This document shows, one piece after another, positions 27,499 to 39,566 of a DNA stretch of 64,000 nucleotides (position 1 is its first letter; each line of letters starts with the position of its first letter). Location of the stretch: contig NZ_CP012328.1 in NCBI RefSeq assembly GCF_001262715.1, positions 310,001-374,000 of the forward strand, given 5' to 3'. The notes beneath the pieces are model-generated. The model did not search any database, was not told the origin of the DNA, and saw only the letters and a program-made list of their open reading frames with translations. The stretch comes from Spiroplasma turonicum. GTDB lineage: Bacteria; Bacillota_I; Bacilli_A; Mycoplasmatales; Mycoplasmataceae. The translations under genes and the position numbers were made by a program.

Positions 27499-27530
27499 AT
27501 ATTTATAAAAGTTCTGTAAAAGGTGTGCTC

Positions 27531-29423
27531 ATGGTCAAAAAAATTATCTTGTTTTTCTCAATTTTTTTAACTATCTTTAATACTTTTTTAGTATTGTCTT
27601 GTTCAAAAACACCAAATACCAGTCAAGATTCTATAAAAAATGAATTTCAGTACAATGCGTTATTTAAAAACTATGTATCTGATTTATCTAATGTAATAGA
27701 AAATTGATACGTGAATTATGTTAAAAATGTAGATTTCTTTGAAGATGATGGCACTTCAGATAAGTTATTTTTCAATGCAAATACATTAAAAAGAGCAAGT
27801 GAATTAAATATTAAAATAAATGATGTTTCACCAACAATTATTGATATTAATAGTAATAATTTCAAACCATTTTATGAAGGTTATATTAATGATATTAAAT
27901 CAATTACAAATTATAATGTTTTGATTGATAGCATAAATAATTTTAAAACAATTGAAAAATATAGTTATTTAACAAAAGGTATAGATAGTATTTTCAACTC
28001 ATTTGATATTGTTGAAGGTACTAACAAATTTTATTTTCAAAGTATAACTCAAAGTAATGAAAATAAAATTACTAATGATAAAATAATAAACAACTTTATT
28101 TTTGATGTTTCATTTAATTATAACTCTTGAAATAATAAAGTTTTAAATAAAAGTATTGGTTTGCAAAATACCTTTAAGTTTACTTATTATAAATCTACTA
28201 ATATAACAAAAATTATCTCAAATGTGAAAAACGTATTTGAAAAAAACTTATCAAAGCATTCTAATATAACGTGAGATAATATAAAAAATGATAATTTAAA
28301 TGAAAATAAGTATATAAAAATTAAACAAAAAACACTATCCTATTTTAAAACTATAGAAAAAGACGTTCTAAATGAAATACATAGTGTTTTTAATAACCAA
28401 GATAAAAATAGTTTTAGGTTAGAAAAAATTGATAATAATAAATCTATTTTTTCAGATGTTAATTATGTTAATCAAATAGAAGCTGATCAAACTAATTCTA
28501 ATCAATATGAATGGCATACAAAAAATAAAGGTGAAGAACTTTATGATTTAATATTCCGTAAAAACTATGAAAAAAAACTTTTTAATATAAATAATCAAAA
28601 TATTAGTTTAGATCAAACATTAAAAACCTTTCTTGATAATAATGTTGTAAAATATATTGAAAGTTACAAGGAAAGATTAAAAAAATACATAAGCAATAAT
28701 AATTTAAACATTTCTTTGAATGACATTATAACATCATCCAAAGTTGGTTATATAAACATTAATAATTTAAGATTATTTAACGGTAATAAATATATAGACA
28801 TTGGAAATATAAAACTTTTAATATCATATTCAATAAATAATGAAAAAATAATTGAACTTAATGACAAAGATATATTAAATTCAGAAAATTATATAATGTT
28901 GTATAATAATTTAACCAAAGGTATTCAGGATTTTCAAGAAGCTTTTGGTGTTATAAATAATATGGAAAATAAGGATAGAATTATATCTTTTTCTAGTTTT
29001 AAAGATTACTATGGTCGTAATTATTTTACATATATTGAAAGTGCTTTAAATAAAAAGGACCCAACAGATTGAACTTTGTTAAGTAAGTATCTCTCATTAG
29101 ATGTTGATGAACCTACAGTTAATAATATTTGAAAAAATAAAGCATATGATAATCAAGAAATTTTTGAATGGAAAGTTGAAAAATCTAATTATTTTGTAAA
29201 ACTTAAAAGTGATACGTTAAATAATGCTGCGTTTATAATTGAAGATTATTTAAAAAATACTAATTCATCCGAATCCAGCGATATAGAATATGGAGAGAAA
29301 GAAATTAAATTTATATATAAAAACGAATTAATTAATGCTTCATTTAAAACAGATAAAATTTGAGGTATTTATAATGGTGAAAATTATAAAGATAAAACTA
29401 TATTTGAAATTGTCAAGATATAA
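27531..29423 (+). CDS. Lipoprotein, 630 aa (paralogue of the one at 31381)
   Basis: Signal peptide with lipobox LVLSC; Cys24 is the lipidation site. The rest is extracellular, Asn/Lys/Ile-rich, without a recognised domain. Around residues 398-470 the pattern VGYININNLR, IKLLISYSI, followed by a YNNLTKG segment, matches a segment of the lipoprotein at 31381 (VGTLNISNLK, KIQFSYSID, TNLW), so the two are divergent paralogues. AAAAGGTG precedes the ATG. It is followed by a membrane protein whose binding site overlaps its stop. Confidence 0.78.
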
Positions 29424-29439
29424 GGAGAATTAATGTATT

Positions 29440-31332
29440 ATGAAGGATAAAAATAAAGAAAATTATAATAATGAAGCAATAAAATATCAAAAAGATTTAA
29501 TTCTAGATGAAAATTTTGATAAATCAAAAATAAAAAAAATTAGTTTGTTTTCATTGATTAAATTTTGTACTAAGATGTTATTTTATGAAAAATCATTATA
29601 TATTTTTATATTAATAATTACTTTGTTTACATTTGGTGTAGCTTTGTTTATTCCTTTTGCAACATCTAGCAGTCTTGTAGTAATAGTATTTGATTTTTAT
29701 GTTTTAATTTATATTTCAAGTTTCTTATTTTTATTGTTATTAAGAATGTGTCAATTTTATTTTAGTAGAAAAGTAGAAGATAAAACAGTTTTTATAGTAT
29801 TGTCAAATCATGTATCTAGGTTTAAATATTTCATTACTCAAATTGTTATTATTTTATTTATAGCATGATTAAATATATTCTTTAGCTGAATTTTAATAAA
29901 TTTATTTTATAATATATTTAATGTTTTTCAAGAATCAGAGGTAATATTAAGAAAAACAACCTCATTCTTAGTTTTTTCATTTTTGATTACATTCTTTCTT
30001 GTTTGCTTAATAATATTTTTATCAGTATTTTCAAATAACCAAACAACATTAGTAATTACTACTTTAATATTGTCATTTTCTTTTATTGCTAATTTACCAT
30101 ATCAATTTATAAGAGCTAAAGAGAAAAGTGATGTAATATCTTTTTCAAGTTTCGGGCAAGAACAAAGTTATAGAGTTTCGAATATTTATGAGTCATTTGA
30201 TTTCATAAATTATGTATATAATAATAAAATAAAATATAATTATTTATCAAATTCGTTAGCTAATTTCTTTATAAACAGCTCAATTGCAAAAGATAATTTT
30301 TCAAGATTTGATCAAAATGGTAATCCTAATGATTCAGTTATGTTGAGATATAATTATTGAAAAAGTTTAGGTTTAATTGAAGAGTTTGAAGATAATAAAA
30401 ATTATAGTTTAGAAAACATTCAAGTAAATAATTTTCCAGGTGTCGCTGATTTTTCTAATAATGAAATATGAAATAATAATGATTATTATAATATAAGTTT
30501 TCATTTTAAAAACAACTTTATTAGTATTGATCAATTAAAAACTTTAATAAATCAAACTAATGATATCGACAAAAAAAACATTTTATTAGATTTTTATAAT
30601 TTAAATCAACAATTAATAAAAGATATATATAACTTTCAATTAGATAAGGCAGATTTGTTTGATGATTTCATTAAAATGGCATTTAATAGTAATCAAAATC
30701 TAAATACTTCATACATTTGTTCTACAAAAAATAGCAGTAATTGTGCAGATTTTAAATCATCATATTTAATTTCCATCTATAAAAAAGAATTATTAAATGA
30801 TTTATATAATGGAAATGAATCTGCAACATATTTTGCTTTGAAACCTAACCAAGAACAAGTAAAAAAATTAATAAAAGAAGATTTATATTTGCCAACAATG
30901 TTAACTGCAAGAGTTATCGAAAATTATTTTATTGATCCAATAAGTACTTTTAAAACAGTTACTAACTTAAAAGTCCTTAAATCAAATGCAAACTGAGTTG
31001 AGTTCACTAATAGAAGACAGTTATTTAATATTTTTACATATCTTAGTCCTTTTTATAGTGTATGAACAAACTATACTTATTATTCAGGATTTTCTTGAAA
31101 AGATTTATGATTTTCACCATATAGTACAAGTAGTTTAAATCTTTATGATCAAGAAAATTTATTATTACCTTATTTAGTTTATGATTTAAAACTTGATGAA
31201 AATGGAATTATATATAATGATGTTTATGACAAAAAAACTGAACCTTTTATATTCATAATTATTATTTTTATAATATGTTCTTCATGTTTAGTTGCTTCAG
31301 CATTTAAATATAATGTAATTGATTTAGCATAA
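29440..31332 (+). CDS. ABC-2-like membrane protein, 630 aa
   Basis: Four hydrophobic segments in residues 45-220, a large polar region (about 225-600) with Asn, Tyr and aromatic residues, and a final hydrophobic segment at about 603-625. The topology, several N-terminal spans, a big probably extracellular domain and one C-terminal span, recalls FtsX/MacB or ABC-2 permeases, but no signature confirms it and no ATPase is adjacent. Start ATG is 11 nt after AAGGAGA. It lies between two related lipoproteins, suggesting a surface complex. Confidence 0.72.
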
Positions 31333-31380
31333 ATTTATTATAAAATTAACATATATAAATATTCTAGGGGGTAGTATTTT

Positions 31381-33273
31381 ATGAAAAAAATATTAACAAT
31401 TTTATGTGTATTATCAACAATAACTATTAGCCCATTAATAACAATATCTTGTTCAAATAAAGAAAGTGATAATAGTGAAGAAACAGATATTAATTATTAT
31501 AATAATTTATTAAATGATTTTAAAAGAGAGGTTTATCGAATACTTAATAATTCAATAACTCTAGCATCAGCAAATTGAATTGAATCAGGAAAAACAAGTG
31601 AAGCAAATAAATTTTTAACTATTAATAATTTTAAAAATGTTGTTGATTATTATGAAGAACACAAAAATTATAATTTATCTAATGAAGATAAAGAAAATTT
31701 AATATATGATATGAATAATAAAATAAATGTTAATTCTATAATATGAAGTTTAAATGATCTTAGAAATAACTCAAAATATGACATCCTTTTAAAAGGATTA
31801 GAAAATTTCTACGGGGGAATGGAAATCGATTATTCAACTCTTGATATGCAAAGGAAAGAATTTTTAAATGAAGAAGGTGAAGAGCATTCATATAACTTTA
31901 ATGGATCTTTATCTTTAAAATTCAACTTCAAAATAAATTATTTATCTATCGATAATAAAATATCTAGACTAAGCGATTTAGATTTTGATTTTAAATTTGG
32001 TATTAGTCAAGATGAGTCATTATCAAATTTATGAAAAGATTTTTTTAATAACTTATCTAAAAATTATTTAGCTTATTCAGATTATGGTGATTTAGACTCT
32101 AATAAGTTAAAATTAGATAATGAAGATAAAATACCTTTTATTGTTTCAAATGCAACTGTAAATATTATAAAAGATGAAAGAACAAAGTTAGCATCATATT
32201 TTAGTAATGATTCTTTTACTACAGGTTTAACTGATTTAGTAAAGAAAAATAGCTCTTTAAAAGATATTAGTATTGACTTTGCAAGTGCAGACAAAATTAA
32301 AACATTTGAACAATATGATCTTGATTGAATAAATAGTTTAAAAGCAACCGAAAAAGAATATTTATTTGATGATTCAAATATAAGTAAAAACTTATATAAA
32401 TATATTTTTAATTTAGATAAAAATGAAAAAGTGGGAAATTATGATAAAGCATTAAATGATTATTTATTAGAAAATTTCAATGATTGAAAAACTTCATATA
32501 AAAATGTTATGAACGAATATTTTAAAAATAATTTAAATTACGAGCAAGCTGAATTAGTAATTAAAAAATATAGTAGTTATTTAAAAGTAGGCACATTAAA
32601 TATATCTAATTTAAAAGCTGTTGTTAAAGGTAAAACTATTGATGGGAATTATGATATATTTGAGCAGCCGTTACCAAAGTTTAAAATTCAGTTTAGTTAT
32701 TCTATTGATTTAAATGAAAAATATCTTAATGATGAAAATAACATAATTGAAACAGTTGATAGTTTAAATACACTTAAATCTATTTATACTAATTTGTGAA
32801 ATTCAATTGACATTTATCAAAAATGCATTGGTATAACTAAAAATAATAATTTAGAGACAACAGTACCAATGATAATTCTTACAGGAGATGCAACAAATTT
32901 GGGTGTTGGTCAGTCATTTTGAAACCCAAAATTTTCTATATGAGAAAATTTAGGTAAGGATAAATTGCTAGATATAAAATTATCAGACTTAAATACATTT
33001 ATGTCTGTTTATTTTAATAATTCTGATTTTAATATGGAAACAATATTAAGATCATTAGTATTTTTAGATTATTCTAGACAAGGTTTTATATCGCAAAGTT
33101 TTACATTTGAAGACAAAAATATAAATATAAAAGCAAATAAAAATAATGTTATTTTAAACTCATCCAAATCTTATGATTTTAAACATAATTTTACAATGAA
33201 TTTTATAAATGCAACATTTAACTTTAAAAATTTAAAATTAACAAATAACCTTAAATTAATCTCAAGAACTTAA
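31381..33273 (+). CDS. Lipoprotein, 630 aa (paralogue of the one at 27531)
   Basis: Signal peptide of 23 residues ending LITISC, Cys24 lipidated. Extracellular part rich in Asn, Asp, Lys and Ser. A C-terminal half segment (about residues 400-480) matches the lipoprotein at 27531 in order and spacing. No known domain. The gene ends inside a terminator hairpin whose left arm is coding sequence. A GGGGG-containing binding site precedes the ATG. It likely forms one unit with the two genes before it. Confidence 0.78.
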
Positions 33274-33369: not shown

Positions 33370-35250
33370 ATGTCATCTAATAATTTAGAAAAAAAATCGA
33401 ATCAACCAAAAAAACAAGAAGATAATTCAAATGAAATAGCCTATGTATATCAAAGTTTTGGGCCAAAAGCATTAGCTTTAATTAATAAATATAATTTACA
33501 ATCTGATGAAAGTTATAAAAAATTAATATCTTCATATGAAAAAATTGATTCTTTGACATTAGATGATCCAAGAAGGGATAATTTAACTGAATTATGAGAA
33601 TCTGAATTTAATAGAATATTTAAATTTTTTTGAGAAGGATATGTAAATACAAATAAAAAATCTTCAAGTAATTCTGGAAGTAAAATTGATGGTTGAAAGG
33701 ATAGACTTGATGTTAAAGCTGTATCAATGTCTCCTAGCCAAAAAAGACAAGATTTATTAAATAGACTATCTGGTGGTAATAAGTCAGTTAACAGAAACAC
33801 ACGAGAAGACATATTAAGTAGAGCTGGTTATCAAAGTCAAACAAAAGTTGAACAGTTTAATTTTACAGCAACTCCTAAAACTGGAAGAAATTTACATGAA
33901 ATTGAAAATATATTAAATGATTTAGACACTAGTGTATCTGGTTCATTAGAACCAGAGAGTTTTTTAAAAAGTGGATATTTAGCAGATAAAAACAGTGATT
34001 TAATTGATAATGTAAATATTGAAGATGATTTAAATGATTTTGAATTTGATGAAGAAACAAAAATTATGACTACCAAGGCTGTTCAAGATCCAAACTTAGA
34101 AGCTTTTGTTAATGATACAAATTACTCAACAAGTAACAATTTAAATGATTCAATTAAAAATGAAGAAGATAGCTTTGATAATGAAAGTAATGATCAAGAT
34201 TACATTGCTAATGAAAATATGAGTAGAGCAGAATTTAATGCTGTTAATAATATTGAATATGATGAAAACGCAGTTACTTCAAATGATGATACAGTAGCAG
34301 CGTTAGAACTTGGACTTGATTTCTTTCAAAGAAATATCGGTGATGGTTTTTATGATAAACAAAAATTATCTAACAAACAAGATGACTTTAAACCTTTTAA
34401 ATATAATGTAAAAGATGAATTAATAAATCCTTTAAAGAAAAATATTTTATCAAAAGAAGGTTTTGAAATAAGTAAAAACGATTTAAAATCAGAAATGTTT
34501 ACAGACAAAAAATATAATCAAGATAATGAAGTTTCAAGTGAAATAAAAAAACCATACCACGAAATAAAACCTGTTGGTAATTATCAAATGAAATTTGATG
34601 TTTTAAAAAGACCATCAATGAGAGAATTGTTAGAAGAAAATTCTCGTGAAAATAAAACAATTGATGAAATGACACAAAAAATTGAGTTCTTAAGAGAATT
34701 AAGAAATGAAAGACGTCATAGAATTAATCTATTAAAAATTGAAAGAACAAACAGTTACATTGTTGCTAGGTCAAGAAAAATTGCTGAGTCACGTGAGTTA
34801 AGAAGAATTAAGAAACGTGAAGAAATTAATTTGAAAGCAATACAAAAAGCTGAAAGGCTGAGAAGACTTCAAGAAAGACAACGTTTAATTGAATTGATGA
34901 AAGAACGTCAAATGAAAAGAACAGAGGAGAAAAGAATTGCTACTGTTCTTAGACTTGAACGTGAAAGAAGACTTGAAAGAGATGCAAAAAATAGAGCAGA
35001 GCTTGCAAGTATTGATGCACAAATTAGATATGAACAAGAAATGATTAAAAAAACAGAACTTAAGATGAAAGCTTATTTCACTAGAGTTCATGATGATGAA
35101 TTATTCGATGAATCTATAAAAGCAGCAAGAAAAACAGACAAATATAAATCTATTGAAGAGAAAGCCTTAGAAATTCAACAATTAGAAGATAAAAAAAGAA
35201 AAGAAAGAATTGAAAAAATTAGTAAAAAATTCACTAAGAACATCAAATAA
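33370..35250 (+). CDS. Hypothetical protein with C-terminal coiled coil, 626 aa
   Basis: ATG at 33370 is preceded by AGGAGGG; an in-frame upstream ATG lies at the -10 element and cannot be used. Residues 1-120 are polar, about 120-400 acidic and Asn/Asp-rich (probably disordered), and about 400-626 are a dense Arg/Glu/Lys helix pattern with repeated ERLRR, ERQR and LERERR blocks, a long coiled coil. No signal peptide or membrane span, so cytoplasmic. It looks like a scaffold or cytoskeletal-type protein, but this is inference. It opens a block of lineage-specific genes. Confidence 0.78.
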
Positions 35251-35252
35251 TT

Positions 35253-35282
35253 GGGCAAGTTTTATATTAACTTGCTCATTTT
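35253..35282 (+). terminator. Candidate terminator after coiled-coil gene
   Basis: Stem GGGCAAGTT/AACTTGCTC (35253-35277) with a short T-rich tail. Confidence 0.55.
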
Positions 35283-35369
35283 ATTAAATTTTTTTAAAGG
35301 AATTTATAAGGCTTTAAAATAAAAATGATAAAATTAATACAATAAAGAAAATAATAAATGGAGGTTTTT

Positions 35370-36626
35370 ATGGTTAAAAAGGTTAAAGGTACAAAGAAAA
35401 AATATCAAAATAATATATTCAATTTAATTTCTGATAAAACAAAGTTAAGAATTAAAGGATTGATAGAAAAAAGACTTACAACAAAAACAGTTCTTTTATT
35501 TGCACAAGAATATGAATCATATGATATTGAAGTTAGAAGAGAATTAATTGCTTACATTGCTTTTTTATTTAATGAAGAAGAAGAAAAGTTTAATAAAGAT
35601 TACAGTCAACAAATTCAACAAGACCCAAGAGCTCAACACTTACAACAAATTAGATGATTAGAATTAAGTGAAAAAAGAGAAAATATTAAAAAAATAGAGG
35701 ATATTTTAATAAAAAGAGACCAAGAGGTTGTACAAGAAAACCTAAAAATAAACAAACCAAAAAACTCAGAAAAAGATAAAGAAATTGAATTAAAATCAAA
35801 ACAATCAAAACCTGTAAAAGTAAAAATTGAAGAAAGTAAACTTGATAAAATGCTTAAAGAGGCTCAACTTAGAGAAGAAAATGAAGCAAAGTTAAGACAA
35901 AGAAAAATAGAAGAAGAAAAATTAAAAAAACAAGCTATAGAAAAAGAACGAGCATTAAGATCTAAAAAGGCATTAGAAAAAAAACAAGAAACTAAAAACA
36001 TTGATAAGTTGTTAAAAGTAGAACCAAAAGTTACTGAAAAAGTAAAAAATGATTCTAAACTAAGCGATGAAAAAAATAATAAACAAGATGTTCAAGCAGA
36101 AAAAGTAGTTAAAAGTGTTCAAATTGATAGAAATTATGAAAAAGAACAAGCTGAAAAAGAAAAACTATGAAAAGAATTATATGGTTCATCAAGAAGTGAT
36201 AAAAGTAGATTAAATTTACCTAATGAAAATACAAGTGTAAAAAAAGTATTTAAACCATCATTAACAGATAAAACTCCAACTTTTGATTATGATGAACTTA
36301 CTCATTTTGTAATTTGTGGAAGAAAGTTTGATTTTGAAGAATATTCAAATGTAAATAATAAATATTTTATTTTTTGAAGAAAAATGACTAAAAAGTTTAG
36401 AATGTCTAACATAACAGTATGGTTAAATCTTAATATAGATAAACAACCTAAGTTATTGAAAAAAAGATTAAAATTCCAAAAAAAACTTGAAAAAAGATTT
36501 AAAACTAATAACAATATTAACAATCCAAAACCATCAAATAATGCTACTGATGATATTAAAAAAAACTCAAGTGAAAATTTAAATAAAACTTCTATTAAAA
36601 ATGATTCTATAGATTCAAATCAATAG
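35370..36626 (+). CDS. Hypothetical coiled-coil protein, 418 aa
   Basis: ATG 35370 follows GGAGG at 35360-35364. The N-terminal 90 residues look folded (KLRIKGLIEKRLT, FAQEYESYDIEVRRELIAYIAFLF). Residues about 110-270 are Lys/Glu-rich coiled coil with heptad-like EEEKLKKQ and EKERALRSK blocks; around 290-380 a second compact part (FDYDELTHFVICGRKF, then an aromatic and basic stretch); the C-terminus is Asn/Lys-rich. No known family. Cytoplasmic by appearance. Resembles its upstream neighbour in overall style and may act with it. Confidence 0.72.
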
Positions 36627-36637
36627 AATCATTTTTT
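36601..36637 (+). terminator. Terminator at end of coiled-coil gene
   Basis: Stem ATGATTCTAT (36601-36610)/ATAGAATCAT (36623-36632), then six T. The left arm and stop codon are part of the gene. Confidence 0.7.
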
Positions 36638-36644
36638 GAGTCAT

Positions 36645-37580
36645 ATGATAATTACATTAACATTAACTTCAGCGCTTTTATTTTTATTATTAATATTTTT
36701 GATATTTTTAATTTTTTTGATAAAAGATAAAAAAATTATTTATTACTTAAATGAAGTGCCTGAAAATTTTATATATAAGAAATACTATAAAGAAGATTGA
36801 CACTTATTTAAAAATAAAATAGAGGAATTATGAGATCTCACACAAAATAAAATAGTAAAACTTTCTATACTATCAACTTATGAATATTTTAATTTAGGAC
36901 TTTGCAACTCTCGTTATTTAAAAGTTTGAAAAAAACTTAAAAAAAACTTTGGTTTTTTAGTTGCATATAAAGTATGCAAGGAACTTAAAAATTACAACAA
37001 AATAATTGAAAACATTTGACATAAAAAGTACTATACAATATTTAAAGATCTGTATTTTATAGTAAAAAATGAAACTGCTTCACCAAACTACTTTTTTTAT
37101 AAATATTACTTTTTGTTTATTTATAAAATGAGACAAATTATAATTGAATCAATAAATAATTTTATCTTACCTGCAATATTAGTAAAATATATTCCAAATA
37201 ACATAATTATTGAATATGAAGAATTTCAAGTTATTAGTAAAATTGAATATAATGACTACATTGAAAAAGCTTTTTTAAATGTTAACTCTAAATTAAATAA
37301 GGCTTATTCATCAATTATCCAAGAATATAAAAATGAATTATTAATTAAAGGTAATAATTGAGTTGTTGACTTTAATAATAAAAGTATTATATTCGAAATG
37401 TTTCCTTTAAAACATTTTAAGAAGATAATTTTTAACCAAAGTTTTTTTAAATTAGCAAAAAGGTTTAAAATAAATATAAGTGATTATTTAGTTGATGATA
37501 TCAATAGTTTAATTAATACACTTAAAGAAAATAATGTTGATTTTGATGAAGAATATTTACTTAAGATTTTAGAAAATTAG
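36645..37580 (+). CDS. Hypothetical protein with N-terminal membrane anchor, 311 aa
   Basis: Starts with a single hydrophobic span (residues about 4-27) followed by a Lys-rich, aromatic, helical soluble domain, likely cytoplasmic. Several TGA Trp codons. No strong ribosome binding site is visible and the ATG is 8 nt past the terminator T-run, so expression may depend on read-through or coupling. No family recognised. Followed after 8 nt by the CxC-rich gene. Confidence 0.65.
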
Positions 37581-37588
37581 AGGTTTTT

Positions 37589-38233
37589 ATGAAATGTTGC
37601 AATTGTGAATCAAGTATAGTAAAAAGTTGCATTTGTGCAATTGATAGTTGTTCTTGTTTAGAAAGCAATTCTATTGATTGTTGATGTTGTATAGAGGAAT
37701 TTTGATATGCTTCTATAAAAAAAGATGATACACATAAGTATATAGAAAACACATTAGAAGAATCTATTAAAAACAAAAAAATAGACAAAATTGTGAGAGA
37801 AGAATTCTCATTGTTAAAAAAAGATATTCAAATAAATTTTAAAAACAAATTTAAAAACTCTAATAAAAGTTATTTAGAATTAATAGATTCAGACATAAGT
37901 CCTTCATTAATAGCACAAGCATTTCATTCAAATTTGATTACAAAAATTATTTATTTTATTAATGAGTTATACTATTATCTTGAAACAATTAATTTAATAA
38001 TTGATGTTTATCCAAATTTCAATCTTATAATTGATTATAAAAAAATTGAGCAATTTTTATATAAAATTGACTATATTTTACCAATTATTGTAAATGAGTT
38101 TAAAAGTATCGATAAAGAAATTGATAACTCATTTGAGTATGAAATGCTTAAAACTAAGTTATATGATTTAGATGAATTAACTGTAAGAATTAAAGATAAG
38201 ATAGAAGTTAAAACAATAGATTATAAAAAATAA
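37589..38233 (+). CDS. Hypothetical protein with CxC-rich N-terminus, 214 aa
   Basis: The first 34 residues contain ten cysteines, at 3, 4, 6, 14, 16, 21, 23, 31, 33 and 34, forming four CxC pairs. Cys is otherwise rare in this window. This resembles a metal-binding (metallothionein- or cluster-like) patch, though a disulfide or acylation site is possible. Residues 35-214 are helical, Ile/Lys/Asp-rich without Cys. Two TGA Trp codons lie in the Cys region. AGAGG precedes the ATG. No known family; it closes the lineage-specific block before trigger factor. Confidence 0.72.
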
Positions 38234-38276
38234 TTTGATATAATTAAAAAAGTCTAATATATAGAGGAGAAGAAAT

Positions 38277-39566
38277 ATGAAATTTAGTGCAAAAAAAGAA
38301 ATAGAAAAGGGTTTGGGTTATTGAACTGTTGTAATAGAAGGAGATAAATGAGTTGATGCTGTAAAAAAAGGTAAAAACAAAGTAGCTGCATCAATTGAAA
38401 TACCAGGATTTAGAAAAGGTAAGGCTCCAAAAGAGAAGATTGAAAAATATGTTACTCCTGTTAAATATCTAAATGCTGCTTTACAATCTGTACTTGATAA
38501 TGCATGAAAATTTGCATTAGAACAGAATTCGGAAATAAAACCTTTTAATTCGCCAGTACCTACACCAAAAAAAATTAATGATGAATATTGCGAAATTGAT
38601 TTTATTTTTGACTTAAAACCTGAAATTAATATTGTTGAATATAAAGGTTTAAAAGATAATGAACTTAAAAAAGAAGAAATTAAAGTTTCCAAAGAAGATT
38701 TAGATAAGGCTATTGATCAATACAGGGATAAATTTTCATTAGAAAAAGATAAAGAAAAAGATGCAAAAATTTCAAAAGGAGATGTTGTTACATTTGATTT
38801 TGAAGGATTTATTGATGGTGTTGCATTCCCAGGTGGTAAGGGACTTGATTTTAAACTTGATATTGGTAGTGGAAAAATGGTTCCAGGTTTCGAAGATCAA
38901 ATGATAGGAAAAAAACTTGGAGAATGTAAAATAAAAGTTACATTTCCTAAAGATTACACTCCTGAATTATCAGAAAAAAATGCTGAATTTGTTTTAAATA
39001 TCAAATCTATTAAAGAAAAAATATTACCTAATAAGGATGATGAATTAGCAAAAGATTTAAACATACCAAATGTTAATACTTATAAAGAATTAGAAAGTTA
39101 TATTAAGTCTCAAATTAAAGAACAAAAAGAAACTCAATTAAAAACAATATTTGTAAATAAGGTTATTGAATTAATATCAAAAAACTCTACAATTGAAATA
39201 CCAAAATCAGTTATTGATAAAGAAGTAGATAATTTATATAAAGAGTTTGAAGCAAAAGTTCAAGGTCAAAAAATAACAATGAAGGATTATAAAAAACAAA
39301 CTGGATTAACAGACGATAATATTCGTGAAGAACTTAGAAATGATGCTATTAAAAGACTTGAAAGTTACTTGATTACTGATAAAGTTAGAAACACAGAAAA
39401 ATTTGAAGTATCAGATGATGAAATTAAAACCAAGTATGAAAAGTTAGCTAAATCATTTGGCGTTGAGCCAGATTATATTAAAAATAATTTACTTCCAATT
39501 GATCATATTAAAGAAGAAATTATTAAAGAAAAAATCATTAATTTTTTATATGAAAATAATGGATAA
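38277..39566 (+). CDS. tig: Trigger factor
   Basis: Ribosome-bound chaperone with prolyl isomerase activity. The N-terminal ribosome-binding part contains the signature region PGFRKGKAP near residue 45; the PPIase domain (about 155-245) has GDVVTFDFEGFIDG and MVPGFEDQMIG; the rest is the chaperone arm. 429 aa is normal. GAGGAGA precedes the ATG, with a TATAAT about 40 nt upstream. It is followed by its own terminator and then lon, a common neighbourhood of quality-control genes. Confidence 0.95.

Follow-up and report, generated by a model that had tools for sequence, protein, structure and literature searches.

A cysteine-rich gene at the end of a cassette upstream of tig and lon

Spiroplasma are insect-associated, wall-less, reduced bacteria. 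In the window, i.e., the whole stretch of 64,000 nucleotides of the Spiroplasma turonicum genome analysed here, a gene for a cysteine-rich protein (hereafter CYS) lies 8 bp downstream of the gene that we call C. Both belong to a cassette with the order A-[X]-B-C-[Y]-CYS, placed just upstream of tig-lon in the genus and in some related genera, and CYS is the last cassette gene in every genome that has it. The S. turonicum genome (1,261,374 bases, one contig) carries a single copy. The features of the locus are collected in Table 1.

Table 1. Features at the CYS locus, in window coordinates
Feature	Position	Strand	Remark
Cassette gene A: charged, Arg-rich coiled-coil-like C-terminal part	33370..35250	+	possible GTG start 33331
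Terminator-like hairpin after A, parting A from B-C-CYS	35252..35278	+	consensus match only
Cassette gene B: charged, coiled-coil-like	35358..36626	+	
Cassette gene C: soluble part preceded by a single N-terminal transmembrane-like segment	36636..37580	+	start TTG 36636 or ATG 36645
CYS gene: 214-aa protein, Cys-rich N-terminus and helical domain	37589..38233	+	NCBI table 4
Ten-Cys module, residues 3-34, CCxC-x7-CxC-x4-CxC-x7-CWCC	37595..37690	+	
Predicted helical domain, residues 39-214	37703..38230	+	single-sequence AlphaFold, mean pLDDT ~60
TTTGATATAATT: promoter-like extended -10 site (TTTGNTATAAT), between CYS and tig	38234..38245	+	
tig, trigger factor, conserved downstream neighbour (context, outside the module)	38277..39566	+	
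lon, next after tig	39628-42048		

Codons 32 and 39 of CYS are TGA, which is read as Trp under NCBI table 4. The original prediction had given the gene's coordinates and ten cysteines, at residues 3, 4, 6, 14, 16, 21, 23, 31, 33 and 34; these are right, but only under this table, and the same translation bears out that no cysteine follows residue 34. The cysteine density, which it had called striking, is indeed so: cysteine makes up 0.66% of the residues in the other ORFs of the window, and against this background at least ten in 34 residues has a binomial P of ~2e-14, the best of those other ORFs reaching 4 per 34-residue stretch. As for the concern that translation might begin further downstream, the comparison of homologues disfavours it, since all 18 begin at the same Met, which the first CC follows at once or after one residue (M-CC or M-x-CC). 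Moreover, a ribosome-binding-site-like GAGG lies upstream of the CYS start, and most of the 18 homologue starts have a recognisable ribosome-binding site.

The part behind the cysteines had been described as helical, and single-sequence AlphaFold models likewise show the C-terminal part as helical, although their confidence is low (mean pLDDT 56 and 60). A Foldseek search with this low-confidence model gave no match below E 2. CYS had no convincing family match in Pfam, NCBIfam, PHROG or PDB, and residues 1-40 had none in Pfam or PDB when searched alone, such short Cys-rich queries being easily missed. Weak matches of single members in NCBIfam, Pfam and PHROGs were scattered and not shared, and were treated as chance. 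No strongly hydrophobic segment was found in CYS, and the protein is therefore expected in the reducing cytosol.

The cassette is lineage-specific and its members are unevenly spread

CYS had been placed in a block of lineage-specific genes, which is in line with what we found: A, B and C are confined to a few related genera and lack family matches. None of the four cassette proteins of the window (A, B, C and CYS) had a Pfam match, and neither X, Y nor the relatives of the cassette proteins in genus g7 had one at a meaningful score. CYS itself is unrelated to A, B, C, X and Y as judged by hhalign, with all probabilities <4%. Gene A is the widest-spread member (g1, g6, g7, g9, g11 and g12, weak in g11), followed by B and C (g1, g7, g9 and g12) and by X and Y (part of g1, plus g7); among the cassette-bearing genera, CYS is restricted to g1. 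Gene A is also strongly conserved, at about 52-80% within the genus, with an Arg/Glu-rich coiled-coil-like end.

In relatives without the cassette, the gene order is pepP-efp-asp23-like-tig-lon, where efp was identified by Pfam, and pepP and the asp23-like gene are what we take them to be from recognising their sequences. A-[X]-B-C-[Y] sits between the asp23-like gene and tig (window 33370-37580 and loci L278-L310). CYS is missing from a sister pair of genomes (G014 and G019), both of which have gene A, and five genomes have CYS without C. Since CYS can be lost where A stays and be present where C is not, it does not strictly depend on one partner.

Several further observations were made at these loci. 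Directly upstream of the cassette, the window carries a lipoprotein-like/membrane-protein/lipoprotein-like block (27525-33273) that is absent there in the two closest relatives (G012 and G006), in which a ROK-like gene is directly followed by A. In G014 (L294) the cassette is decayed, with B reduced to fragments of 73 and 84 aa, C and CYS absent and A intact. One genome alone, G013, has a HAD-type hydrolase-like gene between CYS and tig (L291 10695-11516). Loci L020 and L021 (G010 and G004) encode a protein that resembles dihydrolipoamide acyltransferase (E2); a long charged insertion separates its lipoyl-like part from its catalytic part.

The stretch between CYS and tig carries the promoter-like site TTTGNTATAAT in the window as well as in all 16 homologous loci examined, and tig probably has its own promoter. 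Given this site, and given that the tig-lon adjacency is older than CYS, the closeness of tig-lon says little about what CYS does.

CYS homologues are found in one genus

Of the 20 genomes of the genus, 18 have a CYS homologue; the 300 other genomes of the order have none. Profile searches of 320 order, 100 class and 392 phylum genomes (sets that overlap) gave no convincing member outside the genus; weak matches in five genomes of other genera (G024, G112, G325, G360 and G500) covered helical stretches alone and were rejected. Nothing was found in viral contigs by a single-protein search, nor were there matches in the plasmids or phages searched. A degenerate Cys-codon pattern, run against the genome and viral contigs, was too loose, returning low-complexity TGC repeats and chance matches. 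S. turonicum Tab4c belongs to the Apis clade (PMC4653801).

Fixed cysteines with variable spacers

If the cysteine pattern matters it should recur among homologues, and exactly ten cysteines are kept in 17 of the 18; the remaining member (G005) has only 8. Eleven columns are invariant across the family, 8 of them cysteines, and a ninth Cys column is retained in 17 of 18; K119 and F171 are also invariant. Cys columns have a mean majority fraction of 0.95; for the remaining N-terminal columns it is 0.44, and for the part of CYS behind the N-terminus 0.47. At every Cys position both TGT and TGC are used, and in 7 of the 8 pairs compared, dN of the N-terminal non-Cys codons exceeds that of the rest of the gene. 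Invariant columns, synonymous codon variation and high spacer dN together indicate strong selection on the Cys scaffold and much less on the spacers, a combination of frozen cysteines and fast-evolving spacers that resembles metal-thiolate proteins. The helical part is under purifying selection as well (dN/dS ~0.1-0.4). CYS is a real, conserved gene and a cassette member, with its cysteines under purifying selection.

The ten cysteines come in two layouts. Type I (CCxC/CxC/CxC/CxCC) is found in ten genomes, S. turonicum included, and type II (CCxC/CxC/C/CCxCC) in seven; in the latter, C21 is absent and an extra cysteine stands directly before the last CxCC, so that the total is still ten. A tig+lon tree is without resolution at the base of the genus, and is compatible with a single or a repeated exchange of layouts. 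That ten are kept while one moves is as would be expected for a set of ligands. The two ten-Cys layouts and the eight-Cys member offer a natural series for probing which ligands matter.

A putative metal-thiolate module and the alternatives to it

Clustered CxC thiols in a reducing cytosol bind metal rather than form disulfides, and Zn is the likeliest metal for such a cluster. With the protein expected in this compartment, the best explanation for ten cysteines in CC and CxC arrangement is that they serve a polynuclear metal-thiolate cluster as ligands. The original prediction, in which a module that binds metal or a cluster is joined to a helical domain, is supported, as such a module would fit both the invariance of the cysteines and the free spacers. 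We propose that the first 34 residues form a small polynuclear cluster in which ten cysteinate ligands hold and bridge the metal ions, most likely three or four Zn(II); it would give a compact fold to an otherwise structureless N-terminus. Joined to a cytosolic helical domain, this cluster would serve as a module for structure or interaction in an assembly that is specific to the lineage and encoded by A-B-C(-X-Y). That the module binds metal through its thiolates we regard as probable, and with good confidence; the role in a cassette assembly is put forward less firmly, and the explanation as a whole, Zn-thiolate module and assembly together, with moderate confidence.

The first alternative is that CYS buffers or stores Zn or Cu(I) in the manner of a metallothionein, the helical part serving as a carrier or dimerisation domain and the position in the cassette being incidental. 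Ten cysteines per 32 residues, CxC and CCxCC motifs and free spacers all suit this reading, as does the fact that CYS does not depend on one cassette partner. We nevertheless consider it unlikely, because the helical domain is much longer than a metallothionein and is itself under purifying selection (dN/dS 0.1-0.4), because no recognisable metal-transport or metal-regulator gene adjoins CYS, and because in most members the last Cys motif includes a Trp (CWCC). A Trp inside a Cys motif is unusual for metallothioneins.

Less probable still is a redox or metal sensor, in which oxidation of the Cys cluster or loss of its metal would switch how the helical domain interacts. As a rule, thiol clusters are sensitive to redox state, and the neighbours tig and lon act in protein quality control, yet with the conserved promoter-like site of tig and the older tig-lon adjacency, no functional link to these two is implied, and no DNA-binding domain was recognised in CYS. 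An iron-sulphur cluster protein, to which a Cys-rich cytosolic protein might at first point, is very unlikely, since CYS has its cysteines as CxC and CC and keeps ten of them as a unit, whereas the usual Fe-S ligand spacing is CxxC or CxxCxxC. Finally, a wrong start or frame, with the Cys stretch untranslated and translation beginning further downstream, is suggested by a GTG at 37793 that begins a 146-aa ORF under table 11, but can practically be dismissed, as the organism uses code 4, all homologues match from residue 1-3, and the cysteines are kept while their codons change synonymously.

For the metal-thiolate module, then, the likely chemistry is familiar, polynuclear metal-thiolate clusters being already known, while the lineage and the layout are unusual; in the open-access literature, we found no such module described for Spiroplasma or other Mollicutes. 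More tentatively, the module may be a new ten-Cys metal-thiolate fold, unrelated to metallothioneins or to CXC/pre-SET domains, that arose in one Spiroplasma lineage within a cell-structure assembly, one ligand having moved between clades with ten kept; we see this as possible, if somewhat doubtful. If the module does form a metal-thiolate cluster, an orphan gene of a reduced, wall-less bacterium would have invented or strongly remodelled one. The cassette around CYS, whose genes lack family matches, may for its part have to do with cell architecture.

Comparison with known systems

The CXC (tesmin/TSO1, MSL2) and pre-SET families are eukaryotic. Like CYS, they have many cysteines in a short stretch, arranged in CxC pairs and fused to a larger protein, and a polynuclear Zn-thiolate cluster is presumably common to both. 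In the CXC domain of MSL2, nine clustered cysteines hold a Zn3 cluster, and this Zn3Cys9 cluster has been compared to metallothioneins and pre-SET domains (PMC3447885). CYS differs in having ten cysteines (17 of 18 homologues) rather than nine, and in their spacing, which is CCxC-x7-CxC-x4-CxC-x7-CxCC as opposed to CxC-x11-C-x4-CxC-x6-CxxCxCxxC in MSL2 (from the Cys positions in PMC3447885). Neither full-length CYS nor residues 1-40 matched a CXC/pre-SET profile in Pfam, and residues 1-40 had no such match in PDB, with the proviso that a search can easily miss a query so short and rich in Cys.

Metallothioneins (vertebrate and bacterial SmtA type) share with CYS a Cys-dominated stretch, CxC and CCxCC motifs and free spacers. 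In CYS, however, the Cys part is joined to a helical domain of ~175 aa that is itself conserved, and accounts for 34 of 214 residues, whereas a metallothionein would be mostly Cys domain; in addition, a Trp lies within the last Cys motif. No metallothionein family profile in Pfam or NCBIfam matched CYS.

The helical residues gave a weak profile match to the transcription regulator AcaB (PDB 6n8a; E 0.0014), which leaves the Cys module uncovered and was not among the Foldseek matches of the low-confidence model. As a designed coiled coil scored better in the same search (E 0.0005), the AcaB match is probably a matter of helical composition.

Given the differences in Cys number, spacing and architecture, together with the negative profile searches, we do not file CYS under CXC/pre-SET domains or metallothioneins; by analogy, it may still work like either of them.
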